A stretch of DNA of 64,000 bases from Polytrichum commune. Its lineage: Eukaryota; Streptophyta; Polytrichopsida; Polytrichales; Polytrichaceae. Both the position numbers and the translations under genes were made by a program. This document shows positions 1-61,167 of the stretch, one piece after another. The notes beneath the pieces are model-generated. The model was given only the letters and a program-made list of their open reading frames with translations. It was not told the DNA's origin and did no database searches. Location of the stretch: positions 43,306,440 through 43,370,439 of the forward strand of contig OX485807.1 in the NCBI GenBank assembly GCA_950295325.1, read 5' to 3'. The stretch's first letter is position 1. Every line of letters starts with the position of its first letter.

Positions 1-1020
1 TATGGGGTTCGGGACCGAACCCTTCATTTGGAGGTGCCTAAGTGGCGTCATTTCATGTTAGAAGCTAACGAATGAAGCCTCGGTTCTAGGTTCAGATTTC
101 GGGTGCTCACTTTATATAAGTCTACATGGCCTCATTTCAGGTTAGAATCTCACACCTTGAAGGAGGGCTATAGGCTCAGATTTCAAGTTCTCACATTATG
201 TGGCTGTCCAATATATGGGGTTCGGGACCGAACCCTTCATTTGGAGGTGCCTAAGTGGCGTCATTTCAGGTTAAAAGCTAACGAATGAAGCCTCGGTTCT
301 AGGTTCAGATTTCGGGTGCTCACTTTATATAAGTCTACATGGCCTCATTTCAGGTTAGAATCTCACACCTTGAAGCCTCGGCTCTACTTTGAGAATTCGG
401 GTGCTCACTTTATATATGTCTAGTTGGCGTCATTTCAGGTTAGAATCTCACACCTTAAAGGAGGGCTATAGGCTCAGATTTCAAGTTCTCACATTATGTG
501 GCTGTCCAATATATGGGGTTTGGGACCGAACCCTTCATTTGGAGGTGCCTAAGTGGCGTCATTTCAGGTTAGAAGCTAACGAATGAAGCCTCGGTTCTAG
601 GTTCAGATTTCGGGTGCTCACTTTATATAAGTCTAGATATCCTCATTTCAGGTTAGAATCTCACACTTTGAAGCCTTGGCTCTACTTTGAGAATTCGGGT
701 GCTCACTTTATATATGTGTAGTTGGCCTCATTTCAAGTTGGAATGTAGTATTTGAAGCTGGGCTCTAGGCTTAGATTTCACGTTCTCTGATTATGTGGCT
801 GTCCAATATATATGGGGTTCGGGACCGAAACCTTCCTTGGGAGGTCCCTTGGTGGGCTCATTTCAACTTAGAAACTAACACTTTCAAGCCTCGGCTATAC
901 TTTGAGATTTCAAATGCTCACTTTATATGTATGTAGTTGGCCTCATTTCAGGTTAGAATGTAGTACTTGAAGATGGGCTATAGGCTAAGATTTTAGGTTC
1001 TCATATTATATGGCTCTAAT
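1..1020 (+). repeat. Family-1 palindrome array upstream of gene A
   Basis: Diverged tandem units of roughly 85 bp. Recurrent phrases are CCTCGGCTCTAG, GTGCTCACTTTATATAAG and GGCCTCATTTCAGGTTAGAA. Every few units carry a short palindrome whose arms are GGGTTCGG and CCGAACCC around a central GA; copies lie near 4-22, 218-237, 514-533 (one mismatch) and 814-833. The same unit fills two introns of gene A, so this is one repeat family. It ends about 140 bases before the gene A start and may be part of its promoter region. Confidence 0.9.
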
Positions 1021-1162
1021 GGTTAGAGGTTAATTACAAAGCAACATTATCAATTTGGGTCAAATGATACTTACTTTGATCTACAATGTGTTGACTCTTT
1101 GGTAGGTGCATGGTATATCTTCGCCACCTTCGACATAAGTATCGGAGGGAAAGCTTCCAGAT

Positions 1163-4100
1163 ATGGATATACTAGAGGACGAGCATGAGGTAGAAGAAAA
1201 GTCTCTTGGAGATGATGCTCACTTTCTAGGTAGTGAGGATCAGATTCAGACTAGGCAAAAAGTTAACTCTGTGGCCACGATTACAAGCTTGAGATTTCAA
1301 CCAAACAGTTCTTCGCGATTTAATATTCCGTTGTGCAGATTGATGGCAATGCCAATGGTACGGCCAACTCTGGCATCCGATCTTGCTAAGCTCGAGCAAG
1401 AATTTGTACACGGATACAGGGAAGGCGCTTCGGTCTTTTATGTTACAATCACCAATGAAGACGGAAATACCCATGAAGTGACGGAAGCTGATAAAGCTTC
1501 TTGGGGTCCTATTTGGGACGCCAAAAACGCCATTTTCAACTCATTTCTCCTCTCGGATCCAGCGTTGGCTCCATTCACAAATTTGATGTTTTTTGTGTGC
1601 GACGGTAACCATAGGCGTCAAGCTTGGTTAAATCACATTGACAGACTTCACCGAACTGATGAGGATTGGCATTATTTGGTGGATTCAATTCTCCTGGACA
1701 CAAAGGGAAAAAATGGACTTGTTATGCAAGTCATGCACAACATAAACAAGTATGTTCATTCTCTTTTGATATATAATCTTTCATTGAAAATTCAATATGA
1801 TTTCACTTTCTTTCTTACTATGATAATCTAATATCTTCCATTTGATTTTTGTATTTAGACATATAGAGGACTCTCATGTGAAGACCAACATTGTCTATAC
1901 CCTCTTCGGGGTTCAGAAGTATGGTCTTATGTCAATTGAACAATTCAATGACATTTTGAGTCCAACCGACCTCAAAAAGGGCAAGAAGTCTCAGAAGACT
2001 TGGTATTCGTTACCATTACATGTATTTACAAATTTCATATTTCAGGTGCGTCACGGAATAGTCCTAATGATTTTGTAAAATATGTGAACTTTGATGGTGG
2101 GCTATAGGTTAAGATTTCAGGTTCTCACATTTTGTGGATGTCCAATATATGGGGTTCGGGACCGAACCCCAATTAGAAGGTTCCTAAGTAGCCTCATTTC
2201 ATGTTAGAATCTAACACTTTGAAGCCTCGGCTCTAGTTTGATTTTTCACATGCTCACTTTATGTTGGTTTAGTTACCTTCATTTCATGTTAGAATGTAAA
2301 TCTTTGAAAGTGGCCTATAGGCTTAGATTTCAGGGTCTCATTTTATGTGGGTGTCCAATATATGGGTTTCGGAACCGAAACCTTCCTTTGGAGGTCTAGA
2401 AGGTCACATTTTGAAGCCTCGGCTTCAAGTTTTAGATTACAGGTGCTCACTTTATATTTATCTAGTTGGCCTCATTTCAGATTAGAATCTAACAATAAGA
2501 GGCCTCGGCTCTAAGTTCAGATTTAAGGTAAACACTTTATGTTGTTTTAGTTGGCCTCATTTCAGGTTAGACTCTACCTCTAAGTGGCCTCATTTGAACT
2601 TAGAAACTGGCACTTTGAAGCCTCCGCTCTAGTTTGAGATTTCAGGTGCTCACTTTATGTAAGTCTAGTTGCCACATTTCGAGTTAGAATCTAACATTTT
2701 GAAGCCTAGGCTCTAGTATGAGAATTCGGGTGCTCACTTTATGTTGGTTTGGATGGCCTCATTTCAGGTTAGAATCTAACACTTTGAAGCCTCGCCTCTT
2801 GTTTGAGATTTCAGGTGCTCACTTTATATAAGTCTACTTGGCCTCATTTCATGTTAGAATCTAACACTTTGAAGCCTAGGCTCTAATATGAGAATTCGGG
2901 TGCTCACTTTAAGTTGTTTTAGTTGGCCTCATTTCAGGTTAGAATCTAAGTCTTTGAAAGTGGCCTATAAGCTTAGATATCAGGTTCTCACATTATGTGG
3001 CTGTCCAATATATGGGTTTCGAGACCGAAACCTTCCTTTTGAGGTCTAGAGGGTCACACCCTGAAGCCCCGGCTTCAAGGTTCAATTAAAGGTGCTCACT
3101 TTATATATATCTAGTTGGCCTCATTTCAAGTTATAATCTAACATTTTGAAGCCTCGGCTCTAATTTGATATTTCGGGTGCTCACTTTATATATGTGTGTT
3201 TGGCCTCTTTCAAGTTAGAATCTAACACTTTGAACCTTCGGCTCTAGTTTGATTTTTCACATGCTCACTTTATGTTGGTTTAATTAGCTTCATTTCAGGT
3301 TAGAATGTAAATCTTTGAAAGTGGCCTATAGGCTTAGATTTCAGGGTCTCATTTTATGTGGGTGTCCAATATATGGGTTTCGGGACCGAAACCTTCCTTT
3401 GGAGGTCTAGAAGGTCACATTTTGAAGCCTCGGCTTCAAGTTTCACATTACAAGTGCTCACTTTATATTTATCTAGTTGGCCTCATTTCAGGTTAGAATC
3501 TAACAATAAGAGGCCTCGGCTCTAGGTTCGGATTTAAGGTAAACACTTTATGTTGTTTTAGTTGGCCTCATTTCAGGTTAGACTCTAATTCTAAGTGGCC
3601 TCATTTGAACTTAGAAACTGACACTTTGAAGCCTCCGCTCTAGTTTGAGATTTCAGGTGCTCACTTTATATAAGTCTAGTTGCCACATTTCAAGTTAGAA
3701 TCTAACATTTTGAAGCCTAGGCTCTAGTATGAGAATTCGGGTGCTCACTTTATTTTGGTTTGGATGGCCTCATTTCAGGTTAGAATCTAACACTTTGAAG
3801 CCTCGGCTCTAGTTTGATTTTTCACATGCTCACTTTATGTTGGTTTAGTTAGCTTCATTTCAGGTTAGAATCTAAGTCTTTGAAAGTGGCCTATAAGCTT
3901 AGATATGAGGTTCTCACATTATGTGGCTGTCCAATATATGGGTTTCGGGACCGAAACCTTCATTTTGAGGTCAAGAGGGTCACATTTTGAAGCCTCGGCT
4001 TCAAGGTTCGAATTACAGGTGCTCACTTTATATATATGTAGTTGGCCTCATTTCATGTTAGAATCTAACACTTTGAAGCCTCGGCTCTAGTTTGAGATTT

Positions 4101-7100
4101 CGGGTGCTCACTTTATATAAGTCTAGTTGGCCACATTTCAGGTTAAAATCAAAGACATTGAAGCCCTGGATATAGGTTCAGATTTCAGGTCTCACTTAAT
4201 GTTTTGGATTTGATGGCCTCATTTCAGGTTAGATTCTAACAATGTGAAGCCTCGGCTCTAGGTTCAGATTTCGGGTGCTCTCATTTGTCTAGCTCTAGTT
4301 CAGTTCTTTTGTCCAAAACATCTTGTCCAACTTATTAATTTCATTTTCATTTCAAAATTTGGTTTCCTCGTTCTTGTTCTCTCTTTGTGCAGCATGAGCT
4401 GGGTTTCGCTGCCGACGAGGGTGCACGTCAGCTTGTGGAGCAATCAGAAGGAGAAGTCTCCCCTGCTGACAAGGCGGCTGCGATGAAAGCCGCAGTTGAG
4501 AAGAGATCTCTGGCACTTCGCATGAAAATGGGAAAATTGGTTGCTGTGGCGAACCCGGAGCTTACCGACGGTTGGCTACGTGAGGTACGCACCCTGATCC
4601 TTTGTCCATATCAATCTTTTAAGCTTATCCGTTTGACTGAGGAACTCACAAGAGCTCTGTCTTTCAGATTGAGCGACATTACACGTTAAACTCACTTTCC
4701 CCGGACCTCAACTTAGAGAAGTTGCAGCTCATTGCAACTTCAAGGGCGTCTCCGGCAATGAAAATAAAATGGCTAGAGTACTTTAATTCATCTGCTTCCA
4801 CTCGTGAGGCCCGAAAGCTACCTCCCAAGCCTATCAACGAAGATAAATTGGCAAATTTCTTGGCAAAGGCTTGTTTCTGGGCAGGAGTAAGTCCACTGCT
4901 TCTATTCAATTTTCAGTTCATTGAATTCATCTTTGGCATGTAATTTACACAACTATCATTCTTTATTTCATCGACTTGATTTAGAAATTGGTCCAGCTGA
5001 TGCTTATTTTCTTGCTTAACAGATCTCAGAACATGCCAGTCTCATTTTTGACGAGACCATGCGTCAAGACCGAGTTCCTATCAACATGAGTATTGCCAGT
5101 GAGCCCATGTTATTGCCAGCGTATATCGAAGACTGTCGCATGAAGTTATGGGACCATGCCTTCAGCACCTACTTCAGAGGACAAGATTCCTTCAAAAAAG
5201 GTGACGAGTTTGTTGGATTTAACGGAGCTGACCTAGTTGTCCGCCGAGTTCTTTTTCGGTGCGTCTCTAATCTTTAAGGACTTTTCATTAATTTTAGTAA
5301 TTGGTTCAGTCCATATTCTTTGTTTTGCTAGTTCGGAAGTTGTTGATGTTAATGTTATGTGCTATTTCGTAACACAGGTACTTTAAGTACGAGCTTTTGG
5401 CGAAAGGAGCTATTTCCAAAGATGACCTTCCTGTATTCTTGAACACATGGCTTGATAGATCAAACTCAGCGTGCATGTTCTCGGCTCTTCAAGAACGCAC
5501 GTGGACAAGTTCTCACCTTACCGGCGGTGCCTGGTATCTTGATTGCGCTTTAAGTTTCACTCCTTCTTTTGAGACTGAGCTCAGGAAATCAAGGGAGGCT
5601 GTAGGTGAGTCTGGAATTGAAATGGTTGACTTACAGGCCATAGAAGATGAAAATGAGAGGGCAAAGGCGATGAAACGACGCATTGAAGAGGACCGAAAGA
5701 AAGCGCTGAGGGTCAAGGAAGCTGAGGAGAGAGCTGACCAAAAAAAGCGGGAGAAGGTGCAGAATTCGTTGGATAAGTCCACTAGAAAGGGGAAAAATAA
5801 GATGAACCCCCCTCCGGAGCCACAAGGTAAGAGTCCGGTTGCTCCAAGTCCCACATATGAATCTGGTTCTCATGCTCCAACATTTTCTAGAGGCACAAAA
5901 CGCGACTCGTCCTACGAGCAGTTGAGTCAAATACCTATTATGACATCTGGGGAGGAGCTCGACATCCATATTGAAGAGCTCATTCTCAACTCCTCATTGG
6001 ACGACGTTCTTGGCGGTGACACGGATGAATTCACCCCTTCCTACAACGACTTGAAAACATTCATGCTCAAGGTACTGCTCTTCCTTTAAATTTATGCATT
6101 TCAATCTTGTCAATCCAATGGTGTGACCAGTAGAGTTAGAAAATTTGAGTATTTTCTCAACCTAGAACTGAGACTTCAAAATGTTTGATTCTAACCTGAA
6201 ATGAGGCCGACTAGACTTATATAAAGTGAGCACCCGATATATGAACTTAGAGCAGAGGCTTCAAATTGTTAGATTATAACCAGAAATGAGGCAAACTAGA
6301 TATATAAAGCGAGCACCTGTAATTTGAACCTTGAAGCCGAGGCTTCAAAGTGTTAGATTCTAACCTGAAATGAGGCCAACTAGATTTATATAAAGTGAGC
6401 ACCCGAAACCTCAACATAGAACCGAGGCTTCAAATTGTTAGATTATAACCTGAAATGAGGCCAACTACATATATATAAAGTGAGCTCCTGTAATTTGAAG
6501 CTTGAAGCCGAGGCTTCAAAATGTGACCCTCTTGACCTCAAAATGAAGGTTTCGGTCCCGAAACCCATATATTGGATAGCCACATAATGTGAGAACCTCG
6601 TATCTAAGCCTATAGGCCACTTTCAAAGACTTAGATTCTAACCTGAAATGAGGCCAACTAAATCAACATAAAGTGAGCACCTTTAATCTGAACCTAGAGC
6701 CGAGGCCTCTAATTGTTAGATTCTAACCTGAAATGTGGCCAACTAGACATATATAAAATGAGCACTTGAAATCTGAACCTAGAGCCGAGGCTTCAAATTG
6801 GTTGATTCTGACCTAAGATGTGGCCAACTAGACTTATATAAAGTGAGCACATTAAATCTGAACCTAGAGCCGAGGCCTCTAATTGTTTGATTCTCACCTG
6901 AAATGTGGCCAACTAGACATATAAAATGAGCACTTGAAATCTGAACCTAGAGCCGAGGCTTCAAATTGGTTGATTCTGACCTGAAATGTGGCCAACTAGA
7001 CTTATATAAAGTGAGCACATTAAATCTGAACCTAGAGCCGAGGCCTCTAATTGTTTGATTCTAACATGAAATATGGCCAACTAGACATATATAAAATCTG

Positions 7101-10100
7101 AACCTAGAGCCGAGGCTTCAAATTGGTTGATTCTGACCTGAGATGTGGCCAACTAGACTTATATAAAGTGAGCACATTAAATCTGAACCTAGAGCCAAGG
7201 CCTCTAATTGTTTGATTCTCACCTGAAATGTGGCCAACTAGACATATATAAAATGAGCACTTGAAATCTGAACCTAGAGCCGAGGCTTCAAATTGGTTGA
7301 TTCTGACCTGAAATGTGGCCAACTAGACTTATATAAAGTGAGCACATTAAATCTGAACCTAGAGCCGAGGCCTCTAATTGTTTGATTCTAACCTGAAATG
7401 TAGCCAACTAGACATATATAAAATGAGCACTTGAAATCTGAACCTAGAGCCGAGGCTTCAAATTGGTTGATTCTGACCTGAAATGTGGCCAACTAGACTT
7501 ATATAAAGTGAGCACCCGATATATGAGCTTAGAGCTGAGGCTTCCGATTGTTAGATTATAACCTGAAATGAGGCTAACTACATATATATAAAGTGAGCTT
7601 CTGTAATTTGAAGCTTGAAGCCGAGGCTTCAAAATGTGACCCTCTTGACCTCAAAATGAAGGTTTCGGTCCCGAAACCCATATATTGGACAGCCACATAA
7701 TGTGAGAACCTCATATCTAAGCCTATAGGCCACTTTCAAAGACTTAGATTCTAACCTGAAATGAGGCCAACTAAAACAACATAGAGTGAGAACCTGAAAT
7801 CTTAGCCTATAGCCAACCTTCAAATTCTAGATTCTAACCTGAAATAAGGCCAACTAAAACAACGTAAAGTGAGCACCTTAAATCTGAACCTAGAGCCGAG
7901 GCCTCTAATTGTTAGATTCTAACCTGAAATGAGGCCAACTATACATGTATAAAGCGAGAACCTGAAATCTCAAAGTAGAGCCGAGGCTTCAAAGTGTTAT
8001 ATTCTAACCTGAAATGAGGCCAACTAGAACAACATAAAGTGAGAGCACTTGAAATCTGAACCTAGAGCCTCGGCTTCAAAGCTTTAGATTATAACCTGAA
8101 ATGAGGCCAACTAGATATATATAAAGTAAGCACCTGTAATTTGAACCTTGAAGCCGAGGCTTCAAGGTGTGACCCTCTAGACCTCAAAAGGAAGGTTTCG
8201 GTCCCGAAACCCATATATTGGACACCCACATAAAGTGAGAACCTGATATCTAAGCCTATAGGCCACTTTCAAAGACTTAGATTCTAACCTGAAATGAGGC
8301 CAACTAAAACAACATAAAGTGAGCGCCTTTAATCTGAACCTAGAGCCGAGGCCTTTAATTGTTAGATTCTAACCTGAAATGAGGTTAACTAGATATATAT
8401 AAAGTGAGCACCTTTAATTTGAACCTTGAAGCCGAGGCTTCAGGGTGTGACCCTCTTGACCTGAAAATGAAGGATTCGGTCCCGAAACCCATATATTGGA
8501 CAGCCACATAATGTGAGAACTTGAAATCTAAACCGAAAGCCACTTTCAAAGAGTTAGATTCTAACCTGAAATGAGGCCAGCTAAAATAACATAAAGTGAG
8601 CACCCGAAATATGAATTTAGAGTCGAGGCTTCATATTGTTAGATTCTAACCTGAAATGAGGCCATGTAGACATATATAAAGTGAGCACTTGAAATATGAA
8701 TTTAGAGCCGAGGCTTCATATTGTTAGATTCTAACCTGAAATGAGGCCACGTAGACATATATAAAGTGAGCACTTCAAATATGAATTAAGAGCCGAGGCT
8801 TCATATTGTTAGATTCTGACCTGAAATGAGGCCACGTAGACATATATAAAGTGAGCACTTGAAATCTGAACTTAGAGCCGAGGCTTCAAAGTGTTGATAT
8901 GAATTTGAGCTTGACTGTGGGTTGAGGGAATCTGGTTTGGGGGTTAGGAGTTGATATTTGACTGATTATGATTTGAGTCTAAGGGTGGGTGAGGGAAGAG
9001 GGGATTCTGGTAGGGGGTAGATGTATAAAGTTTTGATTTTTCTAAGACTCTGAAATTGAAATGTAGGACTCGTAAGAGGTCTCTCGGCCCCGACACACTC
9101 TGTTTAGGGTCTAATATGTTAGTGATTTTGATATGAATTTGAGCTTGACTGTGGGTTGAGGGAATCTGGTTAGGGGTTAGGAGTTGATATGTGACTGAAT
9201 TTGATTTGAGTCTAAGGGTGGCTGGGGGTTGAGCTGGGTGCAGCACTCAAAAGACAAAATCCGGCACTACAAGGGTTCTCCGGAGGACCATCCCTGTTTG
9301 GACTTGATTCTTGCAGATATACCGGAAGGTCTTCCTGTTCCTGGCATATCAGACCCACCGTTGTCCATTCCCGCTTGGAATCAAGAATCGAAAGAGTGGT
9401 TACAACCACTCTTTGACTTTGCCGACGAACATCTGCACGACGACGGGGCAATTATTTTGTTTCACCCTTTTCGCATGAGTACGAAGTCCAATATTCTTGG
9501 ATATTGCAAATCGTATGGTTTTGCAATTCGGAAAGAGTGGTGGGGAATGAACCGCCTTCATCTCACATCCCCATTAAATCCAGCATCAACTGTAAGATAA
9601 ACCTTATGTCTTCTTGCTGATCACCGCATTCAGTTTCAATTTAATCCTTGAGGTAGTTCTGAGTATAGACCCACCTAAGTATTATACTCATGCAGTTGTG
9701 TTGTTTACTTTGTAAACTAATGTTGTTCTTTATGTTTGGTACATTGTAGACCATGAGGTTCGGTATTTCATTGGCGGTCAGGAGCGTGCCGGGGTCACCT
9801 GCATCGAAGTTTTCATTTCGCCTTGTCCCTGCATTGGATCCTTATGGGGTGGATGTTGCACGGGATGATATTCTCCAGAACTTGGTCTCTCGTGAGGACC
9901 AGCTAACTAATGGATCCACACCATGGCGAGGGCCTCGTGAAAAATCCGTGCTTCTAATGCAAATGCTAATTGAAGCATGTAGCTCCCCATGGGATATTAT
10001 TCTAGACTGCACGGCAGCGACCGGTATGTCTTTGTAATCTTCCATTTCAGTTGGTTAATCGTTAATATTGTTTTGGTCTACAAAATTCATAGTTATTTTT

Positions 10101-10727
10101 GTACTAAGTTTTTTCCAACTTCTTTATTTGCAGGATCTTCCATTCATGCATGCCGCAATTTGCACCGTCACATTGTGGCATTAGAGGCTGATGTTGATAT
10201 TTTTGAGGCCTTACTTGCTCCATTGATTATCTCTAGAGCAGCCTCTGAAGTCACTCTTGAAGACCGTGTCACCAGTTTAGAGGATCCTGAGGGTGAAGAT
10301 ATCCCCGTAGAGAGGATTGTGAAAAGATCTCGGTTTACTAAGTGAGTAAGGTCCACAAATTCTCTTACCTGTGTTATGTTTTTTGCTGTCATTTCTTATA
10401 AAGTTGAGTTATGAACATGGTACCATTGGCATTTGTAGATGCGATAAATTGGGCTATCCTATTCACCGGCCTTTTTTGTGTGACCCTAAATTCTATCCCA
10501 GCCCTCCAAAGTCTTGGCAACTTCCTACATATGCAAATGATATTGCTAATCAACTAGCTGGAGGTTCTTATCAGACTTTTACATCTAAATATCGTCCGGG
10601 AAGAGTTTTAGAGTTTTTGGATATAGAAGCTTTAGAATCTGATGGCCAGGCCTCCTCTGATGCAGATATTACTGATTCTAGAATGTCTTCATCATCAGGT
10701 GATCACAGTGATTCGGATCTGATGTAA
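1163..10727 (+). CDS. Gene A: ParB-like/N6-N4 methyltransferase-like fusion protein, 10 exons
   Basis: Predicted exons: 1163-1749, 1859-2045, 4393-4584, 4668-4886, 5023-5258, 5378-6071, 9244-9591, 9750-10023, 10134-10341, 10439-10727. All introns are GT...AG and phases match, giving about 1077 aa. The ATG follows an in-frame TAA. Residues 140-160 carry FFVCDGNHRRQAW, resembling the ParB/DGQHR motif (DGxHRxxA). The middle is helical, then comes a lysine/glutamate-rich coiled-coil-like stretch (about 540-640). Residues 725-734, DLILADIPEG, sit where N6/N4 methylases have DPPY; residues 903-925 (DIILDCTAATG...) and ALEAD resemble the SAM-binding motif I with its following acidic residue. ParB-methylase fusions are common in bacteria and phages. 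Gene B shares the exon plan. Introns 2 and 6 (2.3 and 3.2 kb) hold family-1 palindromes. DPPY is not intact, so the protein may bind DNA and SAM without catalysis. Nuclear location and function are inferred. Confidence 0.82.
2090..4300 (+). repeat. Family-1 array inside intron 2 of gene A
   Basis: About 2.2 kb of the same 85-bp-type units in the same orientation as the upstream array, filling the intron between exons 2 and 3. Palindromes with TTTCGG/CCGAAA or TTCGG/CCGAA arms around a 2-bp centre occur near 2153, 2364, 3017, 3375 and 3940. Within the intron, larger blocks are duplicated: the stretch around 2240-2960 resembles 3240-3900. Confidence 0.9.
6170..8890 (-). repeat. Family-1 array in inverted orientation inside intron 6 of gene A
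   Basis: About 2.7 kb of the family-1 unit, here as the reverse complement (TGAGCACC, AGAGCCGAGGCTTC, CTAACCTGAAATGAGGCC). Palindromes, now with TC in the centre (GGTTTCGG-TC-CCGAAACC type), lie near 6548, 7660, 8195 and 8468. A sub-array at 6760-7480 is a more regular higher-order repeat of about 180 bp. The opposite orientation to intron 2 means the gene carries a large inverted repeat across its middle exons. Confidence 0.9.
8893..9243 (+). repeat. 100-bp direct duplication at the acceptor of gene A exon 7
   Basis: A segment of about 100 bp beginning GATATGAATTTGAGC at 8895 is repeated at about 9129. The second copy runs straight into the polypurine/GTGCAG acceptor of exon 7. The duplication is not part of the family-1 array and differs at only a few positions. 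Confidence 0.8.
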
Positions 10728-11500
10728 TAGCTTCATGTGAATGTCTGTGTACTATCTAATATACCGTTTTTTCTTCCGTTGGTTTTTCAGTTTGTGCACT
10801 CATTCCGCATGGAATTCGTTGTATGTGTATCACTTTCGGAGTTTTTGGGATTGCATATATGAAATTGCATATTTAAGTTAACTTTTGACTTCGTTTTTTT
10901 TTATATTGTTCAAAATATTTTCTAACACCACTTGGTTACTTGTTAATGTTTGAGTGTTTGGATTTATAAAGTGTGGTGTGGTTTTTAATATTCCAATTGT
11001 CTTGTTGAATGCATCTTGTCGTTGTTCTCAAATAACACTACACTTTTGTGGTCGTCAACTAGTAGACAATCTAAAGACAAGTAGCCAAACCAAATACACC
11101 TAACATTTTGATTTCTCAAGCATATCCTACCCACAAGAAAGAGGCCTCGGATCCGAGGCCTCTTTCCAAACCTCCTCCTCATGCTAGAACATATAAGAAA
11201 TGGCCAAATGCAAAAACAAGTAGCCAACTCAAATATACATAACATTTTGATTTTCAAGCATAAGCTACCCACAACTAAGAGGCCTCGGATCCGAGGCCTC
11301 TTCCCATAGGTCCACCATCTTCTCAACCACACTGAATTTTCCCACGGCCATAGGGACTTGTTGGTAATTTTAAGAAACTTTTGGTCCTAAAAATTAGGCA
11401 CTCCATAAATATCGGCCTCATAATTCCAAAATTAAACTTCAAATATGTCCTAAATCCACGGTCATAGGGGTCCTAACTTTAGTTAAATGGAGTTTTAAAT
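10728..11500. repeat. 3' flank of gene A with two family-3 palindrome units
   Basis: There is no gene here. Two copies of the perfect palindrome GAGGCCTCGG-AT-CCGAGGCCTC lie at 11141-11162 and 11279-11300. Both sit in a unit of about 138 bp that also contains AACATTTTGATTT and AAATGGCC. Nearly identical units occur around 60.55-60.75 kb beyond gene B, so family 3 is shared between the two loci. The remainder is A+T-rich. Confidence 0.85.
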
Positions 11501-11950
11501 TTTGATTTTCTGCTCACGAGATCTGCTCACCGCTCACCGCTCACATCGTAGCATTCCTGATCCTGGGTGGAAGGTTGTTCTACGCAAAGAGGCACGAAGT
11601 GTGAGATTGACCTCCATGGCTGAGGGAAGACCAGATCTACACTGCCTAAGCTTACGCAACGATGCTGAAACTCAGGGATTGATGGCACAAAATGTCACTA
11701 ATGATACCGTAGCAATGCCGCCTGTTTTATCAAGTTCCAGGGAGTTTTCTAGCAACGAGGTGCAGCTTGCTCTGCAAATGGAGGATACAGAGGCGGACTA
11801 CAATGATGAGTCACCACAGTAGGACTGTAGGAGCCCAACTACTATCTATAGAATTTTGGTACAACAAAGGAGTAGTCACAGAGATTGCACAGTTAACAAA
11901 TTCGAGTTGTATGGACAAAGGGGGTTCATTACCAATATAAGTATAGGAAA
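11500..11950. other. Short open frame of unknown nature
   Basis: An open frame at 11502-11822 (+) would encode about 106 aa with no recognisable domain. It starts in a CTCACCGCTCAC repeat that recurs, diverged, at 13431-13465, suggesting repeat-derived flanks rather than a gene. I do not call it coding. Confidence 0.3.
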
Positions 11951-34915: not shown

Positions 34916-34923
34916 GTGCTGCC

Positions 34924-40951: not shown

Positions 40952-40975
40952 CTGCAAGTAGAAATACATATGTTA

Positions 40976-41845: not shown

Positions 41846-41849
41846 GAAA

Positions 41850-46150: not shown

Positions 46151-46191
46151 ATATGGAAGATTACCGCAATTTAAGGCGGAATTTGCGGAAT

Positions 46192-50100: not shown

Positions 50101-50207
50101 AACCACAGAAAAATCATAGTGGATCAGTGTCCATCCCTCAAAAGTACATAACTTTTGCAAAAGACAACCTTGCTCGGATCGCAGAAGAAGCAACCCACGT
50201 TGAATGA
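47143..50207 (+). CDS. Gene D: DUF7869-type transposase-like protein, 2 exons
   Basis: Exons 47143-48586 and 48721-50207 join in phase across a 134-bp GT...AG intron (976 aa). The ATG follows a GTGTAG acceptor-like site, so a 5' exon may exist. The N-terminal half has a Cys-rich motif (CCVHCCCQLFPRDKL, then DVCCKAWYTIYGVSK) as in long plant and animal proteins with DUF7869. LTVIHDKMDHAKT (about 447-459) is followed by LRVQLDNCAKDNK (about 571-583) and FLLVGHTHDDIDASFGRWS (about 607-625). The spaced Asp residues (451/454, 576, 615-618) suggest an RNase H-like, transposase-type core; this is inference. It is transcribed away from gene C, with family-2 palindromes between and upstream. Only the intron interrupts the frame, so it may be recently active. 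Its cellular role is unknown. Confidence 0.72.
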
Positions 50208-50753
50208 GAAGTTGGTAGGATTGTGTTAGCATGATTATAGTGTAAACAATAATTCTACGAACATATATTACTCATATGTGTGCTCTTCAAAATTGGGGCA
50301 GAGTTTGGGTAGAACTTATGAATACTATATTGTTTTGGAGTTGGATGAATATCCATTTACTATATTTCAATACAAATGTGAAGTTCATTTTTTTATTAAG
50401 TTTGGGACTAAATTGTCCATTGAAAAAATATGCATTTATTACATGCACTTTGTATGTTGCAATGTCTATATTCTATGGAGCATGCTAATAATAGAAATCA
50501 TTATATATATATTTTTGGGTGAAACTTGTTTGGAGTGCTCTACCCAATGTGTTTTTGTTGATGAAATTGGTGTTGAGTGCTCTACCATATGTGCTTATGT
50601 CCGCACATCATAGGTGTGGGATATTAGAACATTTTATATATTTGAGATTGTTGACAATATAGTTTCAGGCATCTTCATGTTGTTTGATCCATATATTAAT
50701 TTGAGACTAGAGAAAGTCTCAATTTAACGAATATAGTGTTCAAAGCGTTGGTT
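50208..50753. other. 3' flank of gene D
   Basis: A+T-rich with short frames. GTTTGGGTAGAACTT (50303) and GTTTGGAGTGCTCTACCCAA (50529) look like degenerate family-2 palindrome halves. No gene. Confidence 0.5.
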
Positions 50754-51220: not shown

Positions 51221-52374
51221 CTGCAACCAAATCAACAAAAATTCAACAGATTTCTGTTGTGTCGGGCAGTTGCGGTCAAAAGTTGGCTTCTTCCACATAT
51301 CCTTGTTATACGGTGTACAGTACCTACCTAATTTGTGTTGACTTTGATGCTAGTGTCATGAGGTATCTGATTGCATCAACGTAGTGACAGGGCATGGGGA
51401 AACTCAAGTATGTGAGCGTAGAGCGGAAAATTTAGATTTTGTTGGGTAATTTTAGGAGAAGCAGTGCCTATTTCCGTGGAATTAGAGATAGTTTGAATTC
51501 TATATTTGGAAAGGTACCCCCATTCCCGTGGACATAATAACCCAGAATTGTTTGAGAAACCAACGGATCCTATAGGCGTGGAAGATTGCATTTGTTATCA
51601 AACATCTTATAGTATATGTTTTCAAATGTATCATATTAAATTAAGGCTGACGTCACCAAATTGAAATCAAAATACCATACACAAAATATTTTATTGGTTA
51701 ACAAAATGTAGCCAACCTCAAGACTTACAAAAATGGGTAGTTAGTTAAAATAGCTATATACTCTAGTTTAGGGCCATCTACACCCTATCTGCCGGGCATG
51801 TCCAATATGGGTAAAATGATCCAAAGAACATGCCATAAAACTCCGTCGCACCATAACAGCCTTCCAATTCAGTCCTTAGCTTAGCCAAAGACCTCAAAGA
51901 CAAATCCCCCAAGTCCAACCTTAGAATCCTCTTGGAAATTTTTGAGGTGACGTGCCGGCTCTTTGAGAACAACATGAAGTTCAATTTAAAAAGTTTGACG
52001 AGGTTATGTTCGCGTGCCAAACAAAACTTCCAATTGCTATATAGCAATTGGGATTGGAAGACGGCCAATGTGATTAGTGTGCACAACCATAAAATAAACC
52101 ATCCACACTAATAGAAAGTATGGTCCCCCTATAACTAAGATCTCACACTAAGAGCCGAGAGCTAGATTGTTTTGTGACTAGAAGTTAAGAGATCCGAACG
52201 ATGAAGAAAAAATAAAGAATGCAATGCGGCCGGATTGACATTATGAATATGAAATAATGGAGAGAAAGAATGAAACTTGCGCCGGATATCAAAAATAAAA
52301 CCAACACACAACTTTTATTAAAGCCGGATAACAACAACAAACGGAGTTATAATCTCCAAAACCAAAATGATAAA
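51221..52374. other. Gene-free stretch between the CACTA-type end and gene B
   Basis: Only short open frames (51376-51591, 51778-52086) with no recognised domain. Confidence 0.5.
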
Positions 52375-55300
52375 CTAAGGGCTTGGAGAACATTCCCTAT
52401 CACTCTCCTCACCCTCATTTGCTTCTAACAAGAAAAGATTTCGTGTCCCACGCGAGAAATGACGAACGCGAGGAGGAGATGGGGACTCCGCCTTCGCAAA
52501 ACAATCCGCCATTGTACTAGCATACGGGGGAAGCTCAAACGGCTTTGGAGGACTTGAAAACATGTCTCGACGAATGACTGCGACCTCCGCTGGCTCTCTA
52601 AATACCCAAGCAAAAGGATTAGAAACATGATGACACTAGAAAATGAGAATTTGAAATCAAGGCAAACATGGCAAAATATAGAAAGCAAACTTACGCACAA
52701 AGGAATCCGAATGCCCTCTTGGTCATCTTTTGAGGAGGATCAAAGATAGATGTAGACGGTGCGGCAACTGAGCGAGATATACGCGCAGGCTGGGGATTGC
52801 GCATGGGGAGTAGGAGTGAATTGAAAATGACGGGGTCACTCTCAAGGGCCACAATATGCCGCTCAAGGGAGCGACATGCTGTAATCGAACCACCTAAAGC
52901 AACGAGAGGTAAAATGTTAGTATGAAAACTAGTCAAGGAAAAATAATAGAAAATTCAAAGTAAGGATGAAGTTGAAAAACAAGGCGTACCTACACCACAC
53001 TGCCAGTCCATAATAACATCATTCTTGTCGGTGAGAGTAGCGAGAAGGATGGAAAAAAAAATAGGATGCTTCTCATGGGCACCTCGCCAAGGTACCCCAT
53101 CACTGCGCATCGTCTGGCTGTTCTCATCGGTGAAGGTATTCAACCATCCATCTCGTTGGAGGTTGTAACCATACTCTTGTATGGCCTCCTCCCGCACTCT
53201 AAGAACGGAGTTAACACGAACAAGAACTTTGATGTTGAACTTCCGAGTCTGCAACAATGAAAATGAAATTGAATTGAAATGAAATGGAATTGAAATTGAA
53301 TTGAAATTGAAATGATAAGCAATACGGAAGGGGAAGAGAGGAAGACTTGCTTACCACTCCAGAGGGAACAACGGGAGATTGGAGGTCCAAATCATTCATT
53401 CCAAACCAATCTTCCGCGACGTAGAAGTCATAAGTGTGTGCCCAATCGAAAATACTCCTAGAAACACTGGCACTCACATAATGGGCAAGAACAAGGACAC
53501 CATGATCATAGAGGTTAGATTTCGCAAATGCAAAAATACACTCATAGTATGATTCATGGAGCTTGTTCCAAGCAGGAACATCGGTGGAGATGTTCGGTAC
53601 CGGCAAATTCTCGGGAATGTCGGCGAAGAGCAAATCGAGGCCCTTGTGAGTTGTAGTCGAGGTGTTCACACGGGAACGACCTGCCCCAACCTGCAATTGA
53701 AACTTGATGAGAAAACAAGAAGGAAAAAAATAAACAAAGCAAAGGAAAAAAAATTGAGAATTGACGAAGGCAAGTATACAAACCTTGGCAATGAACTCTT
53801 GGATGCGGGTATATGCGGGGAGGGGACCTCCGGCAACCTCGGAATCCAGCATTAGTTGAACCATGTCCACATTTTCGATGAGGGAAAGCGTGTTAGGGGC
53901 ATCCGAAGAGGTGGCACTGGTATCCAAGAGAGCGGCCTTCCTCTTGCGAGGCAAAGAGAGGAGAGAAGTGCCACTATGAGATGGAGTGGCAAGAGATTGT
54001 GGATGAAATGCAGATGGAGTAACAGAGGGGGCAAGAGAGGGAGCAACGGAGGGAACGATAGATGGACTGTGTGGGAGGGTGGGTGGCTCAACTGGGGTCT
54101 TAGAAGCAGACCGAGTGAGAACTTGGGAAGATGCTTGAGTGGCGGTCTTCTTTGCTCTGCCCTTTCTCCTTGGTGCCTTAGAAGGAGGAGGGGGAAGCTC
54201 AACGATGTCAGGCTCCTCCAAGGTAACAATGTTATCATCCGGAGCATTACCCACAAGGCTAGCAAACAAAACCTTCTCTTCCCCGGGGACAAATCCTGCA
54301 GCACAATCAAAGTACCATCCACCACCTTGCAAGTGCAATTCAGAGAACTTGTTTGTTTGCGCGGTCGTGTACACGCAGAGGCTAGAAAAAATATTCACCC
54401 AGTCCGAGAGGTAGTCCGGCAAGGAAGATGAGGCCAATGCATTCTTCACAACCAATTCTCTCATGATATACCTACATGACAAAACAAGAATGTAAGAAAA
54501 CCAAGAAAACGAGCAAGAAATGAAATTAAGGAGAGGTGCAAAGTGGAGGATAGATGTATTACCGATAGGCCACACGCTTGATAGCGAGAGCCCTCCTCGA
54601 ACTCCAAGAGATTATCACCTTTGGCAAAGGAGATGTCAGGCTTATCGCCGAGGTAAGGCTTGAAGGCCTTGTCCCAAAGGACAATCCGCCAATGATCAAC
54701 GTACTCACGAGGGCGCAAGATAGTTTCTGATGCGTCCCAATCAATGTCGACGGAGAGGCTCTCCTCTAAGGTCTCAATTTCAACCGCGACTTCCTTCTCC
54801 AACTGCAGAGAGAGAGATGATTAGATATGAGATAAATGGAATAGAGGAAAATGAAAATGAAGAAGGCCGAGGAATGGATTTACCTGAGCCCAGAAGGACG
54901 CCTTGTGTAGCCAGTCGTCCAAAGCCCTCTCCCTCATAGGCTTGTCGACGGGGAACTTGTTATCTAACATTTCATGAAGGGAGGTGTTCCACCAGTAACG
55001 CCACTTAGCTTTGAACGAAGCTTCGATCGGGCATATGACAATTTTTTGCAATTTTTCAATTGTCATGTCCGTCAAAGAGAACTCATTAAAATGGCGGTCA
55101 ATCTTTGCACAAAATAAAAATGATTTGAGTTCAAAAGAGTAATAGAGTTGAAGAGTGATTTGGATGAATTGCGTTCAAGAGTGATTTGAGTTCAAAAGAG
55201 TACCTCATGAAAGAAATCCTCTTCATTGTCAGGGTGTGCAACGGATATGTACTTTTCAAAAGAACGGGCCCGAATACTTTTGATTGTCCTCTCCTGGGCC

Positions 55301-56572
55301 TTGGTCATAACATTCCAAATTTTAGTGGCCGACCTCTCCGCAACGGGTGTGGTCTTACTGTAATGCCTCACTGCAAGGTCTGCTTGAGCCGAAATGTCTC
55401 TCTGCAAAAAATGATCTTGTAAGTTCATATAATCGGCATGGAAATTATCTATGTTGGAAGCTCTAAATGATTGAATGCACAAACCATACCTTGTAAAGAA
55501 ATTTAACGAACACATCCGCGGTCAAAGTGTACCAAGTTGGACGACTCTCCTTTATCTTCTCGCATGCTTTGTAGTCAGATGGCGATATGAGATCCTTGAA
55601 GGTGGACAACTCTAACCTTCCAAAAGTGCGGATTCGAAGGAGCTTGGCCGGAATGTTTGCCTTGACATAATCATGCTCGGTTGACCTGAGAGAAAATATG
55701 TGAGGAACGTGAGGTGAAAAGAATGGAAAAGAATTGAAACAAAAATGAAAAATGAATGAAAAAAATGAGTGAGCTTAACAATTAATGTCGCTCATGGCAT
55801 TGAGAAATACACCGGTGTATCCTCTAGGGTCAACAACAGTGCAATCCACCGAGATATGCCAACTCTTGTCATCGGCGTGGTGGTTATTGATGTGTCTCCA
55901 CCAAGCGGTGAGACGATGATTGCCTTCCCAGACGAAGAACATCTTCCCGGCGAAATGTGCAAGATCCGGATCCTCCTTGAGTTTGGCGTCAAATTCTGCA
56001 GAGGCCTCTTGCCAGAGAGGGCTCCAAGAGGCCATAATGCCAAGGGGAATGGGGAGGTCCACGGGAACGTCGTTGAAAGCAGACACGTAAAGAACCCGAT
56101 CACCCTCTCGGTATCCCATTACAAATTCACATTCCAAGCGCTGCACCTCAACCTCACTTATAGGACGGACGAGAGGGAGGGCTCTCAAGCGGCACAAAGG
56201 AATGGATAAGCGGGACTTACATGTTGGCTTAATCCGGAGGCGTTGGATAACACCAATGGAGTCCTCCTTTTGTGATTTCCGAAGCTCAAGCTCACACACC
56301 ACGGGATCCGTGTCGGCAACTGCTTGAACGGCATCTTCGCTCATTGCGAGAGCCTAACAAAAACACAAATAGTAAAACCATGCTTAGAAAGCTAGAACTC
56401 AAAAAACTTGCTTAACAAATTATTCAACAACTATCCAACTCACCTCTACTTGTAATGGGCCCTGCGAATTGAGACTCTCAACCTGCACAGCTTCAACTTC
56501 AACCGCGGGGGCCGCAAGAACAACATCCTCTCCAGATTGGAGTTGCGATTGCGCAACCTGTGAAGAGTCCAT
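52375..56572 (-). CDS. Gene B: ParB-like/N6-N4 methyltransferase-like fusion, 11 exons, possibly frameshifted
   Basis: Exons on the minus strand: 56572-56444, 56353-55780, 55685-55490, 55401-55204, 55102-54884, 54802-54563, 54471-53784, 53690-53355, 53248-52990, 52893-52695, 52597-52375. It is paralogous to gene A over its whole length: IPLCRLRALPLVRP, FFVWEGNHRLTAW (about 182-194), LLFADIPENLPVPN at the DPPY position, DVIMDWQCGVGGSITACR near motif I, HIVALESD, and a SSPPKPFELPPYAS tail. Exon order and most intron phases match gene A; one exon is exactly 219 bp in both. Two places do not fit. The exon 2/exon 3 junction is off by one base. Exon 6 carries one base too many near 54591-54596, unless a weak GC-GTGTGG donor is used. 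Either the gene is damaged, or splicing or the assembly differs. Introns are only about 80-110 bp, and family-3 palindromes lie upstream. Confidence 0.78.
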
Positions 56573-56744
56573 ATCCTAAGAACATGGAGAAAATGAGAAT
56601 TTCACAGAGAAAAGTCAATAACTTCGTAACTATAAAGAAACAAATCCTCACAAAAACAATACAAGGCCGAGAGCAAACTACAAATGGAAATGGCCGAATC
56701 CTAAGTCAAGTGGTAAACTCTAGCACTAACTTACCTACGAATGA

Positions 56745-58360
56745 GAGGCCTCGGATCCGAGGCCTCTTTTCCTACCTCCTCCTTATGCACTACCCAAAAG
56801 AAAAAGGCCGAGAGAAATCGTATGTGAACATAGCAGTTTGACTTTTAAAGCCCATACATTGTCTCCAAAATGAGGCCTCGGATCCGAGGCCTCTTCACAA
56901 ACCTCTTACTCATGTAGTACCCAAAACAAGAAGGCCGAGAGCAATCTTACACGAACATAACATTTAGATTTTTCTAGCATAAAATTCACACAAACATGAG
57001 GTCTCGGATCCGAGGCCTCTTCCCAAAACACATATTTATTCACTACCCAAAACAAGAAGGCCGAGAGCATTCGAAAATGAACATAAGTTTTTCATTTTTC
57101 AAGCACATACCTTGACACAAAAATGAGGCCTCGGATCCGAGGCCTCTTCACAAAATACCTACTTATGCACTACCCAAAACAATAGGGCCAAGCGCATTTA
57201 AAAATGAGCATAACATTTTAACTTTTCATGCACATACCTTGACACAAAAATGAGGCCTCGGATCCGAGGCCTCTTCCGAATGCCCCTCCTTATGAAATAC
57301 ATACTACAGAAAATGGCCGAGAGAATTAAAAAACGAACCTAACATTTTCATTTTTCAAGCACACAACCTGACTAAAAAATGAGGCCTCGGATCCGAGGCC
57401 TCTTCCAAATGCCCCTCCTTGATGATTTTAAAACCTAACCAATTTACTTGTTACATGGCTCACGGGTGTTCACCCGTGAGGTTCACATTTGATGATGTTC
57501 TAGGGGAGGTCACTCCATTGCCAAGTTGCATCACCAAAATGGGTCAAAATTTTCTCAAATGTTTTTGGAAGGTAGATATACATGATATCTATTACGGAGT
57601 AAAATATCATGACCAAATTTGATGATCATATTTTTCTAGAAAACATACCATTTCTACCTAGAATGACGCAAAATTCAACTAAAACAATTACTAGGAAAAA
57701 TGAAGATGACAAAAAATTTCAAAAAAATAACCAAAAGGTATAATCAATGGTTATGAATATAGAGAAAAAAAATCATAATTTTTAAAAATATTTGACATGG
57801 AGACATCTCCCCGTGATGATGCTAAATCCTACCCAAGTTACTTGTTACATGGCCCACGGGTGTTCACCCGTGGGGCACACATTTGATCATGTTAAAACCT
57901 AACTTTTCATGCACATACGTTGACACAAAAATGAGGCCTCGGATCCGAGGCCTCTTCTGAATGCCCCTCCTTATGAAATACATACTACAGAAAATGGCCG
58001 AGAGAATTCAAAAATGAACCTAACATTTTCATTTTTCAAGCACAAACCTTGACACAAAAAAAGGGCCTCGGATCCGAGGCCTCTTCCCAAAGCTCCTACT
58101 TATGCACTTAACAAAATACAATCCCCCCCCCCCGCAGCTTCAGACCTCCATATCTTCCACGTGTTGTGTCCGAATCTAACAATCAACCACTCTATCGTCA
58201 TCTACGTGAAATGTAGATGCCGATGGACACCTCACTTGCTCCATTTGGGCAAAATTCAAGGAAGTTATGCCTGTTTAAACATTCGCAGTCCCGGGAGCCA
58301 CTCCCTGGGGACTGCTGATCGAGGGCACTAAAAGGAGGCCTCGGATCCGAGGCCTCATTT
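56745..58360. repeat. Family-3 palindrome array, 120-130-bp units, upstream of gene B
   Basis: Perfect or one-mismatch GAGGCCTCGG-AT-CCGAGGCCTC copies at about 56745, 56873, 56999, 57125, 57255, 57380, 57933, 58066 and 58336. Typical units carry GGCCGAGAG, AACATTTTCATTTTTCAAGCAC and CTTATG. The first copy lies about 175 bp upstream of the gene B start codon. Confidence 0.95.
57460..57479. repeat. Palindrome TCACGGGTG-TT-CACCCGTGA, one of three copies
   Basis: A further palindrome with 9-bp arms and a 2-bp centre. Other copies are at 57854-57873 (CCACGGGTG-TT-CACCCGTGG) and about 60407-60426 (one pair changed). All three follow CTTGTTACATGGC, so the unit is longer than the palindrome. Confidence 0.85.
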
Positions 58361-58799
58361 TGAAACTAGTTTACATACTCAAAAACAAGCAAAGTGCCTC
58401 ATTCATACAAGCTATACGTTGAATCAAAAAACCTCAAGTGGCCTCGGATCCGAGGCCTTACACACAAACTAGTTTACATATTCAAAACAAACCAAAGTGC
58501 CTCATCCGTACACATGTTTTGGAACACATAAAAGAGGCCTCGGATCCGAGGCCTCATTCACAAACTAGTTTACATCCTCAAAACAAACCAAAGTGCCTCA
58601 TCCGTACACATGTTTTGGAACACATAAAAGAGGCCTCGGATCCGAGGCCTTATTCACAAACTAGTTTACATACTCAAAACAAACCAAAGTGCCTCATCTG
58701 TACACATGTTTTGGAACACATAAAAGAGGCCTTGGATCCGAGGCCTCATTCATAAACTACTTTACATACTCAAAACAAACCAAAGTGCCTCATCCGTAC
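58321..58799. repeat. Family-3 array, 96-bp units, part 1
   Basis: Regular units of about 96 bp: palindrome, then TTCACAAACTAGTTTACAT, ACCAAAGTGCCTCATCCGTA and CATGTTTTGGAACACATAAAA. The open frame here (58438-58755) is a repeat artefact. The array is broken after CCGTAC at 58799 by an LTR and resumes at 59873. Confidence 0.95.
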
Positions 58800-59872
58800 T
58801 GTCACCAAAAAACCTCCACCCTTCAATTTCGTCCTAGCCCGAATGGAGAAGTTTATAATGACATGTAGAGATTTGTCTCTTTGTAACACAATGTATGATT
58901 CCAATCTATCGTTGGAATATACATAACTTAGCCAAGTCTATACTATGTCTTCTTACACTCCTTAATCCCGAAGTTTGGAAGTTTGGAAGTTTGGAAGTTT
59001 GGACATAGTCTCGGTTTTTTGGCTTTCAAAAATTTATATGAAGTCCAAAAAATGAGTTCTTAGTATCCATGGATAGGTAATGAAGTCCTCTACATGAATA
59101 TGCAATAATATTTCTACTGCCACAAAGTATATGGTCGCAATTCTACGCTGTTCCCTTTGAACCTACACTTTTTCACTAGTTTTTGGAAGTTTGGACATAG
59201 TCTCGGTTTTTTGGCTCTCAAAAATTCATATGAAGTCCAACAAAACTAAATGCTCCAATAAGAGACTTTGCACATCCGCATAAGTATAAGGCTAATCAAG
59301 TATTCAAACAAAGCCATAAATTGAACTTTAAATCATTCACGCCCAACTATTACTAATAAGAGGTCAAGCCCTCTTCAAGGCCAACTAGCCTTGGCTCCTA
59401 ACCTTACATCCATGCACACACACGTGCTCCTATCTTGCTTCCCACGCACCCACACTTATAACACGTTGAGTGCCAAGGAGCACGAAGGAAAGAGAGGATG
59501 AGTGAGAGAAGAATGAGGGATTATATAGTGAGTTTGAGGGGGTGAGCACCCTCAAGGCTCACGATAAGCCCTCGAGATATCCTCCTACTTTGTAGGCTCT
59601 TATCCTATCTCCTAAGCCTTCCTCCTTCAAATGATCAACGAGGATCCTAATTCAAACATTTAACTAACCTTGGCTTTCTACCTACCACACTTTACCAAGG
59701 TTTGTCCTTCTCCTATTTAAATCCACTCCACAAAAGCCTAATGATTCAAACTAAGCTTTCTTCAAGCTTCACTCTTTTAATATTTTTGTGAATAATCATA
59801 AATCACCAAAACACCACTTGTAATGTTTTACAAGTGTTAACAACCAATGTGGGCATCAATTTTGGGCTCACA
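58800..59872. mobile_element. Solo LTR, 1073 bp, inserted in the family-3 array
   Basis: Starts TGTCACC and ends GCTCACA (TG...CA). It is flanked by the direct repeat CGTAC (58795-58799 and 59873-59877). Removing the segment and one CGTAC restores a normal 96-bp family-3 unit (CCGTAC + ACATGTTTTGG). No internal retroelement region remains, so this is a solo LTR left by recombination between the two ends of one element. A TATATAG motif at about 59522 could be its promoter TATA box. Its transcriptional direction is unknown. Confidence 0.88.
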
Positions 59873-60380
59873 CGTACACATGTTTTGGAACACATAAAAG
59901 AGGCCTCGGATCCGAGGCCTCATTCACAAACTAGTTTACATACTCAAAACAAACCAAAGTGCCTCATCTGTACAATTGTTTTGGAACACATAAAAGAGGC
60001 CTCGGATCCGAGGCCTCATTCACAAACTAGTTTACATACTCAAAACAAACCAAAGTGCCTCATCCGTACACATGTTTTGGAACACATAAAAGAGGCCTTG
60101 GATCCGAGGCCTCATTCACAAACTAGTTTACATACTCAAAACAAACCAAAGTGCCTCTTCCGTAGACTTGTTTTGGAACACATAAAAGAGGCCTCGGATC
60201 CAAGGCCTCATTCACAAACTAGTTTACATCCTCAAAAACAAGCAAAGTGCCTCATTCATACAAGTTATACTTTGAATCAAAAAACCTCAAGTGGCCTCAG
60301 CCGAGAGGCCTGGGATCCGAGGCCTCATTCACAAACTAGTTTACATACTCAGAACCAACCAAAGTGCCTCATAAAGACAT
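59873..60380. repeat. Family-3 array, 96-bp units, part 2
   Basis: Continuation beyond the LTR, with palindromes at about 59903, 59998, 60095 (one mismatch), 60189 (one mismatch) and 60305. The 217-aa frame at 59834-60487 is a read-through of the repeat. Confidence 0.95.
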
Positions 60381-61167
60381 GCCTAACCAAGTTACTTGTT
60401 ACATGGCCCACGGGCGTTTACCCGTGGGGCACAAGGCAGAGAGCAAGGAATCAAAAATGGAAGATAGTTGACATTCCATTAGTTTGAGAAATCAAGAACC
60501 TCACCTCTCTCAAAACCCTACCTCTCACATATTCAAACTTACACAAATATGAGGCCTCGGATCCGAGGCCTCTTCCCCTAGCTCTTTCTTATGCACTACA
60601 CAAAACAAGACAAGGCCGAGAGCAATTGATGTGCACATAACATTTTGATTTTTCAAGCACAAACCTACCCACAAATAAGAGGCCTCGGATCCGAGGCCTC
60701 TTCCTATGGCTCCCACTTATGCACTACACAATAGAAGAAATGGCCGAGAGCAAGGAATCAAGAAAGCAAGAAAGTCGACATTCCATTTGTTTGAGAAATC
60801 AAGAACCTCGCCTCTCTCAAAACCCTACCTTTCACATACTCAAACTTACACAAATATGAGGCCTCGGATCCGAGGCCTCTTCCCCTAGCTCATTCTTGTG
60901 CACTACAGAAAATGAGACAAGGCCGAGAGCAACATGATGTGCACATAACCTTTTGATTTTTCAAGCACAAACATACCTTTCCTGACATGTTCCTAAACCC
61001 AAATCAAGACAAGGCCGAAAGCAAGTCAAGCTGATATTCCAAATACTATGAGAAATCAAGGTGATAGAAATTAAGCAAAAACGTTGGCGAACATAGCTTG
61101 GCCGAGATCCCGACACCTTAACAGAATTTGGAGTATACCCTCCACTGAAGCCCCTATATTGGCGCCA
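60381..61167. repeat. Family-3 array, 135-bp units, distal end
   Basis: Palindromes near 60551, 60681 and 60857 in units with ATGCACTACACA, GGCCGAGAGCAA and ACATTTTGATTTTTCAAGCAC. These are the units most like the two copies behind gene A. The last 200 bp before gene G hold no palindrome. Confidence 0.9.

Follow-up and report, generated by a model that had tools for sequence, protein, structure and literature searches.

The 64,000-nucleotide stretch of Polytrichum commune DNA analyzed in this study (assembly GCA_950295325.1, contig OX485807.1, positions 43,306,440 to 43,370,439 of the forward strand), referred to as the window, contains three genes, A, C, and B, each accompanied by clusters of short palindromes that belong to three families (1, 2, and 3, respectively). 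Genes A, B, and C lie inside large DNA transposons with identified ends, and the proteins that they encode quite probably recognize the palindromes. The best explanation overall, which we hold with somewhat better than even confidence, is self-recognition by element-encoded proteins of the ParB-fold type with a probable anti-silencing function. The transposon structure, the gene pair, the predicted ParB fold (gene C only), the methylase domain (A, B, and the related gene type E), the arrays, their association with the genes in the regions examined, and the tracking of site variants were computed here. The source genome comprises 407.8 Mb in 64 contigs, in which exact palindrome copies were counted together with a reversed-sequence control. 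The features of the locus are collected in Table 1, where L022 is the left flank of the window and L021 is the DNA to its right.

Table 1. Elements, genes, and palindrome arrays in the window (bp, base pairs)
Feature	Position	Strand	Description
Transposon A, right part	1..11559	+	left end at L022:1525; flanked at each end by the 10-bp target-site duplication ATCCTGGGTG
Gene A	1163..10728	+	gene model of 10 exons with GT/AG junctions; intact, 1,077 amino acids
Family 1 array 5' of gene A	1..830	+	runs on leftward into L022
Family 1 array, gene A intron 2	2046..4392	+	sites 2154, 2367, 3017, 3378, 3943
Family 1 array, gene A intron 6	6072..9243	+	sites 6550, 7663, 8196, 8474; orientation opposite to intron 2
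Two family 3 sites, right end of transposon A	11141..11300	+	11141 and 11279; surrounding unit resembles the 127-bp family 3 unit (by eye)
Transposon C	30583..50740	.	28-bp terminal inverted repeat at both ends; 4-bp duplication CAAA on both sides
Gene C	34924..40951	-	4 exons (40951-39623, 39389-38058, 37727-36228, 35736-34924); open, 1,657 amino acids in the model
Family 2 sites of gene C	36184..41791	.	intron 3 (36184), exon 3 (36507, 36576), intron 2 (37827-38028, six), intron 1 (39498-39599, three), 5' flank (40976-41791)
Family 2 array 5' of gene D	46192..46950	.	
Gene D	47143..50207	+	two frames that overlap, the second matching DUF7869 (E 2.5e-42); divergent from gene C
Transposon B	51397..64000	.	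continues to L021:3178, 15.8 kb in total; 10-bp target-site duplication ACAGGGCATG
Gene B	52375..56572	-	11 exons; resembles A (39% across the ParB-like exon)
Family 3 array	56745..60879	.	between gene B and the divergent transposase-type gene
Transposase-type gene T of element B, 5' part	62293..64000	+	extends as far as L021:2065; homologous to the T gene of element A

Perfect 10-bp target-site duplications are present in all three elements in which both ends were seen, namely A, B, and E12 (AGTTGGCATG in the last); among 200 randomly paired places used as a control, a perfect match of at least 9 occurred once. These three elements also carry short imperfect inverted repeats of the TGAGCGG type. 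Copies of the C region elsewhere in the genome stop sharply at the 28-bp inverted repeat AACACTATATTCGTTAAATTGAGACTTT, and ATAA flanks the copy at C1 2.1128-2.1298 Mb on either side. The C elements compared below are the window copy and copies X1, X2, and X3; the window copy contains an ~2.85-kb insertion (31294-34140) that is absent from X1 and X3. The ParB-type gene is divergent from gene T in A, B, E12, E14, and E18, and its partner in the C elements is gene D, probably a transposase; no mention of DUF7869 was found in the open-access literature searched. Target-site duplications of Mutator-like elements (MULEs) are 8-11 bp. Elements A, B, and E resemble MULEs in their 10-bp duplications and in a SWIM-like CxC...CxH motif in T, but T has no match to a MULE transposase in Pfam and its SWIM match is under the cut-off (E 0.23). 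The T proteins of A and B are 35-54% identical, depending on the piece compared, and no domain shared by D and T was detected. Two stretches 50-64% identical to gene D (DUF7869) lie just past the gene B copy of region L015 (3979-5468 and 8268-9734).

Gene A encodes a GNHRRQAW motif in exon 1, a charged middle, and a C-terminal N6_N4 DNA-methylase domain (PF01555). The GNHR..A motif is found in all four A/B/E-type proteins, which have no match to a ParB profile, and PF01555 is matched in all three types up to E 1, with scores of 29.4 and 31.5 for A and 13.4 for B (scanned joined) against a curated cut-off of 26.7. At the place of the expected catalytic motif, DPPY, we read DIPE in A and B and QFPD in E. 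The gene B model is out of frame at the exon 2/3 junction (55780/55685) and near the end of exon 6 (~54563), the result of either unusual splice sites or small lesions. A second copy of gene B, in pieces 88-100% identical to the first, lies nearby at L021 4915-8998 with six family 3 sites beyond it, and a stretch similar to its final exon (E 1.7e-4) is found at window positions 12752-12920, apparently left over from another element of the A/B type. For gene C, structure prediction gives a ParB fold at residues 275-405, and the C terminus carries a NIF phosphatase domain that is perhaps a separate gene; a domain of this type (window 34924-35736) accompanies gene C in all four copies, fused or separate. 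The exons of gene C gave no meaningful match in the PDB or Pfam, and no Pfam methylase match. When the entire gene A protein was compared with 5.8 billion proteins, none of 7,993 candidates scored, a negative of little weight because open reading frames the size of single exons lie beyond the length limits of that search. The ratio of nonsynonymous to synonymous substitution rates (dN/dS) is 0.11-0.27 for a gene B exon and 0.17 for gene C exon 1 between X2 and X3, the remaining C pairs being saturated, and these values suggest constraint.

The methylase domain raises the question of self-modification, in which a ParB-methylase fusion would methylate its own palindromes and so leave a heritable self mark. 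Such fusions have a precedent in that phage ParB folds are often joined to N6/N4 methylases, according to the part of PMC12704722 available to us, and like them the A, B, and E proteins combine a ParB-like N-terminal motif with a PF01555 C terminus in a mobile-element context. In contrast to the phage fusions as that part describes them, the genes studied here bear introns, encode a long extra middle, and have their own palindrome arrays. Because the catalytic motif is degenerate and gene C lacks a methylase match, we consider self-modification very unlikely.

Family 1 (query TTTCGG-GA-CCGAAA, at most two mismatches) has 19 matches at 13 places over both strands of the window, against 0.41 expected from shuffles. 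The corresponding figures are 37 matches against 0.01 for family 2 (at most three mismatches) and 23 against 0.00 for family 3. All three families are located where the original prediction had placed them, far above the shuffle expectation. Genome-wide, there are 9,231 exact copies of family 2 and 1,903 of family 3, and the family 1 sequence GGTTTCGGGACCGAAACC has 112 forward and 112 reverse matches, with 0 in the backwards control for each family. A palindrome search of viral contigs gave 0 matches, and a scan with Rfam found nothing. The longer form of family 1 is GGTTTCGG-GA-CCGAAACC. Of the inner form TCG...CGA with a 2-base centre that had been proposed for all families, the TCG and CGA are shared, but the gap between them is 2 bases only in family 2 and 4 in families 1 and 3. 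The centre is variable only in family 2 (AG, CT, AA, GC, GA, TT, and CA); in exact sites around the window, it is GA (TC when read from the opposite strand) in seven of eight family 1 sites and AA in one, and AT in 21 of 21 family 3 sites. The surroundings of the sites are unrelated, as had also been proposed. The repeat units that surround the palindromes vary in length and sequence, and over 168 distinct flank contexts from eight stretches the arms of family 2 carry 1.4-2.0 bits of information, the flanks 0.0-0.2 (0.44 beside the site), and the centre 0.13-0.22. Because the sites were picked by the likeness of their arms, it is the low values in the flanks and centre that are informative.

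In the 84 kb around the window, with at most two mismatches allowed, 37 of 37 family 2 sites, 29 of 29 family 3 sites, and 23 of 25 family 1 sites lie inside elements. The family 3 sites comprise 21 in B, six beside the second B copy, and two in A; among the 23 family 1 matches of element A, two are deviant (L022:2388 and window 9082) and may be chance. With the left flank included, 12 family 1 sites lie upstream of gene A and nine in introns 2 and 6, the latter representing nine of the 12 window places near the gene; the place at 62927 is distant from it. The compartments occupied by family 2, whose limits we set, are the same in all four C elements. Exact sites in the window copy, X1, X2, and X3, respectively, number 11, 16, 10, and 14 upstream of D; 5, 10, 1, and 3 upstream of C; 3, 4, 2, and 3 in intron 1; 6, 3, 1, and 2 in intron 2; and 2, 2, 1, and 2 in exon 3, with one each after exon 3. 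Coding palindromes in exon 3 are thus kept in all four copies. At the coding palindromes 36507 and 36576, the relative P0003 has EFGSTDPN and gene C has EFGSADPN.

This distribution bears on the possibility that the palindromes are transposase sites, serving as internal or subterminal repeats for the transposition complex, while the ParB-like protein does another task. Elements seen with both ends or both genes do encode a transposase-type protein as well, and T diverges alongside the A/B-type protein. However, the sites are found in introns and in mid-element spacers, mostly kilobases from the ends, and the palindromes in the coding sequence of exon 3 are retained. Furthermore, one family 2 site serves both D elements and T elements despite the lack of a detected domain common to D and T. 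A role as transposase sites is accordingly unlikely.

A genome-wide count of the palindromes near each paralog had been named beforehand as a check, and in the regions examined the association was found throughout: all 13 chosen by their palindromes hold A/B/C/E/T/D-type genes or pieces of them. The seven family 2 regions, which are all those among the first 100 listed of the 9,231 places, contain D and C (L005/6, L007/8, and L009/10), T and an E-type gene (L011/12), an E-type gene (L013), a T gene (L020), or a T fragment beside the sites (L019). A B-type gene is present in each of the three family 3 regions examined from the listed places (E14, E16, and E18; one listed single site was left out). 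Likewise, the three family 1 regions picked from the list of places (L024, L025, and L026) each have a copy of gene A, with family 1 sites in both matching introns in L024 and L026; in L025, the sites are in intron 6 and further upstream, and the first exon was not found.

Many of the relatives of gene C are open reading frames that read on into introns, so that palindromes are represented in the peptide tails. There are 85 relatives, and those without a recognizable exon end gave no tail. Among 70 intron tails, 40 include a peptide from which back-translation can yield a perfect 10+2+10 palindrome (64 hits), as compared with 3-13 tails and a mean of 7.7 hits in 20 shuffles; some of the 64 solutions differ in sequence and look like chance. 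The main variants, deduced from peptides and not from DNA, are GTTTGGGTCG (GT), GTTTCGGGCG (CG), GTTTCGGTCG (CT), and GTTTGGGCCG (GC). In the tree of exon 2, the CG rows (three), CT rows (two), and GC rows (two, with one unlabeled) each cluster, and the four states require three changes, a number reached in 0 of 1,000 shuffles; the exon 1 tree requires four changes, which 4 of 1,000 shuffles matched. Labels were read by eye, for 21 of 39 and 26 of 35 rows. P0018, whose peptide is degenerate, was taken as CG, P0061 as CT despite a differing first residue, P0035 as GC and P0001 as GT (both from intron 1 peptides), and the mixed P0024 as CT; the label of P0051 comes from a truncated peptide and those of P0045 and P0069 from imperfect peptides, and the peptides of P0027 fit GC without fixing it. 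The variant GTTTCGG..., found in P0004, P0023, and P0056-P0058, shares GTTTC...GAAAC with bacterial parS.

The variants also have a bearing on whether the sites act as RNA or DNA hairpins, in intron structure or cruciforms, instead of as protein sites. They are perfect inverted repeats and many are intronic, but the 2-base centre would bar the innermost pairs, yet CG beside the centre is common to all four family 2 variants, and sites are present in intergenic spacers as well. A hairpin function is therefore scarcely credible. That protein and site diverged together, as originally predicted, agrees with the finding that the site variants largely follow the tree of the gene C relatives. Clustering of the labels is also expected from plain inheritance of the introns, from which it does not separate co-adaptation; however, within one element the sites match one another across several introns, exons, and spacers despite unrelated flanks, an agreement that appears to extend beyond inheritance.

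Besides this expectation from inheritance, a number of observations weigh against self-recognition. In the exon 1 tree, CT arises twice, with one CT row inside the CG clade. The first labeling (19 rows in six classes) required five changes, which 10 of 200 shuffles matched, and the stronger clustering figures were obtained after classes had been merged and two rows added. A single stop interrupts gene C exon 1 in X2 and likewise in X3, but none does so in X1. At the position of GERR (box II), the arginines of which form the nucleotide-binding motif of ParB, the gene C alignment has DGQHS in 31 rows and DGQYS in one (32 of 34 aligned rows cover the site); with these arginines missing, binding of cytidine triphosphate (CTP) by the gene C protein is doubtful. 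The original proposal of a ParB-like protein beside clustered palindromes is supported by the predicted fold in the case of gene C, but the identification of A and B is based on the short GNHR..A motif. Two A/B sequences modeled with AlphaFold2 gave a predicted local distance difference test score of 38, and hhalign found no significant relation between the N termini of A/B/E and that of C. Within the 20 kb examined, no T gene was found in E13 or E16, and in E16 a second group of family 3 sites lies ~6 kb away from the B gene, where no separate gene for it was observed. A elements contain a few family 3 sites, namely those in the window and three in another copy, L026 (49-347), and the family 2 palindrome is exactly common to C elements and to E-type elements, which encode an A/B-type protein and the transposase T. 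Because of these last two findings, proteins and sites do not pair strictly one to one: the claim that each protein has its own palindrome stands for types A, B, and C, with the reservation that C and E have family 2 in common and family 3 extends into A. The family 3 sites at the right ends of two A copies hint at cross-recognition or at shared ancestry of the element ends.

The shared sites, the missing arginines, and the basis for the A/B fold leave room for a host factor or for cross-recognition between elements. A host DNA-binding protein that recognizes the palindromes, recruited by the elements through promoter or insulator sites, would account for a family 2 sequence that is identical in two different element types. 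On the other hand, the site variants for the most part sort with the clades of the protein that the element itself encodes, the CG and GC variants have 0 copies in this genome versus 9,231 of GT, and, wherever synonymous divergence is unsaturated, the protein of the element shows purifying selection; recognition by a host protein is thus distinctly unlikely.

To our knowledge, VANDAL/VANC in Arabidopsis is the known case of sequence-specific evasion of silencing by a transposon, and self-recognition with anti-silencing is proposed here because it is the closest known arrangement. The VANC motifs of VANDAL form arrays in introns and upstream regions, diverge with the protein, and are bound in vivo and in vitro, with loss of DNA methylation (PMC5735166); VANC proteins are described as anti-silencing proteins of VANDAL transposons in the available portion of PMC10398659. 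Both systems pair a transposase gene with an accessory gene and have tandemly repeated short motifs, located in introns and upstream, that differ between related elements and evolve with the protein. The present system differs in that the motif is palindromic, a ParB fold and/or methylase domain replaces DUF1985/DUF287 (neither of which gave a Pfam match up to E 1 in the scanned pieces of A, B, and C, covering part of the exons), two transposase types carry such a protein, and anti-silencing is assigned by analogy.

In the mechanism that we propose, A, B, and C would be accessory genes of large DNA transposons, each encoding a DNA-recognition protein on, or like, the ParB N-terminal fold, with a methylase-type fusion in A and B. 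The protein, presumably as a dimer, would bind the palindromes of its own element in promoters, introns, and spacers, and the array-bound protein would mark the DNA of the element as self. Most likely, the bound protein would keep the element accessible against host silencing; it may also control its own promoter, as VANC does for VANDAL. That the outcome is anti-silencing or activation has, in our estimate, an even chance.

Among bacterial systems, ParB/parS, Noc, and VirB, which are clamps of the ParB-CTPase fold, likewise place a ParB fold beside clustered palindromes, and VirB offsets H-NS silencing in Shigella, according to the part of PMC10653881 that was available. In the present case, by contrast, the setting is eukaryotic nuclear transposons, the 22-bp sites are in large arrays, and gene C is without the GERR arginines. 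A ParB-type sliding clamp in the plant nucleus, loading at parS-like sites and spreading on chromatin to exclude silencing, with the module recruited by two unrelated transposon types and matched protein-site divergence, is a speculative extension that we view as doubtful. The suggestion of a ParB/parS partition system was not upheld: the genes belong to transposons, and no sign of DNA segregation emerged, although no search for a ParA partner was made. Chromosome partition or parS of an organelle or bacterium was rejected on the basis of the spliceosomal-type introns, the AGGGTTT repeats at 44280, which we take to be the plant-type telomere motif, and the 407.8-Mb genome in 64 contigs. Between elements A and C, the window also contains a 39-bp tandem array of ~11 copies (21433-21845).

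Open-access literature searches gave no ParB genes in plant transposons among the matches listed, and the most common eukaryotic member of the ParB fold is sulfiredoxin, as stated in the accessible part of PMC12704722. If the self-recognition reading is correct, a bacterial-type recognition fold would perform a VANC-like function in two transposon types of another plant, and a nuclear role would be added to the ParB fold. The 22-bp sites would then be crisp enough for protein-site co-evolution to be read from sequence, and the matched protein clades and site variants would represent ready material for specificity tests and for epigenome tools.

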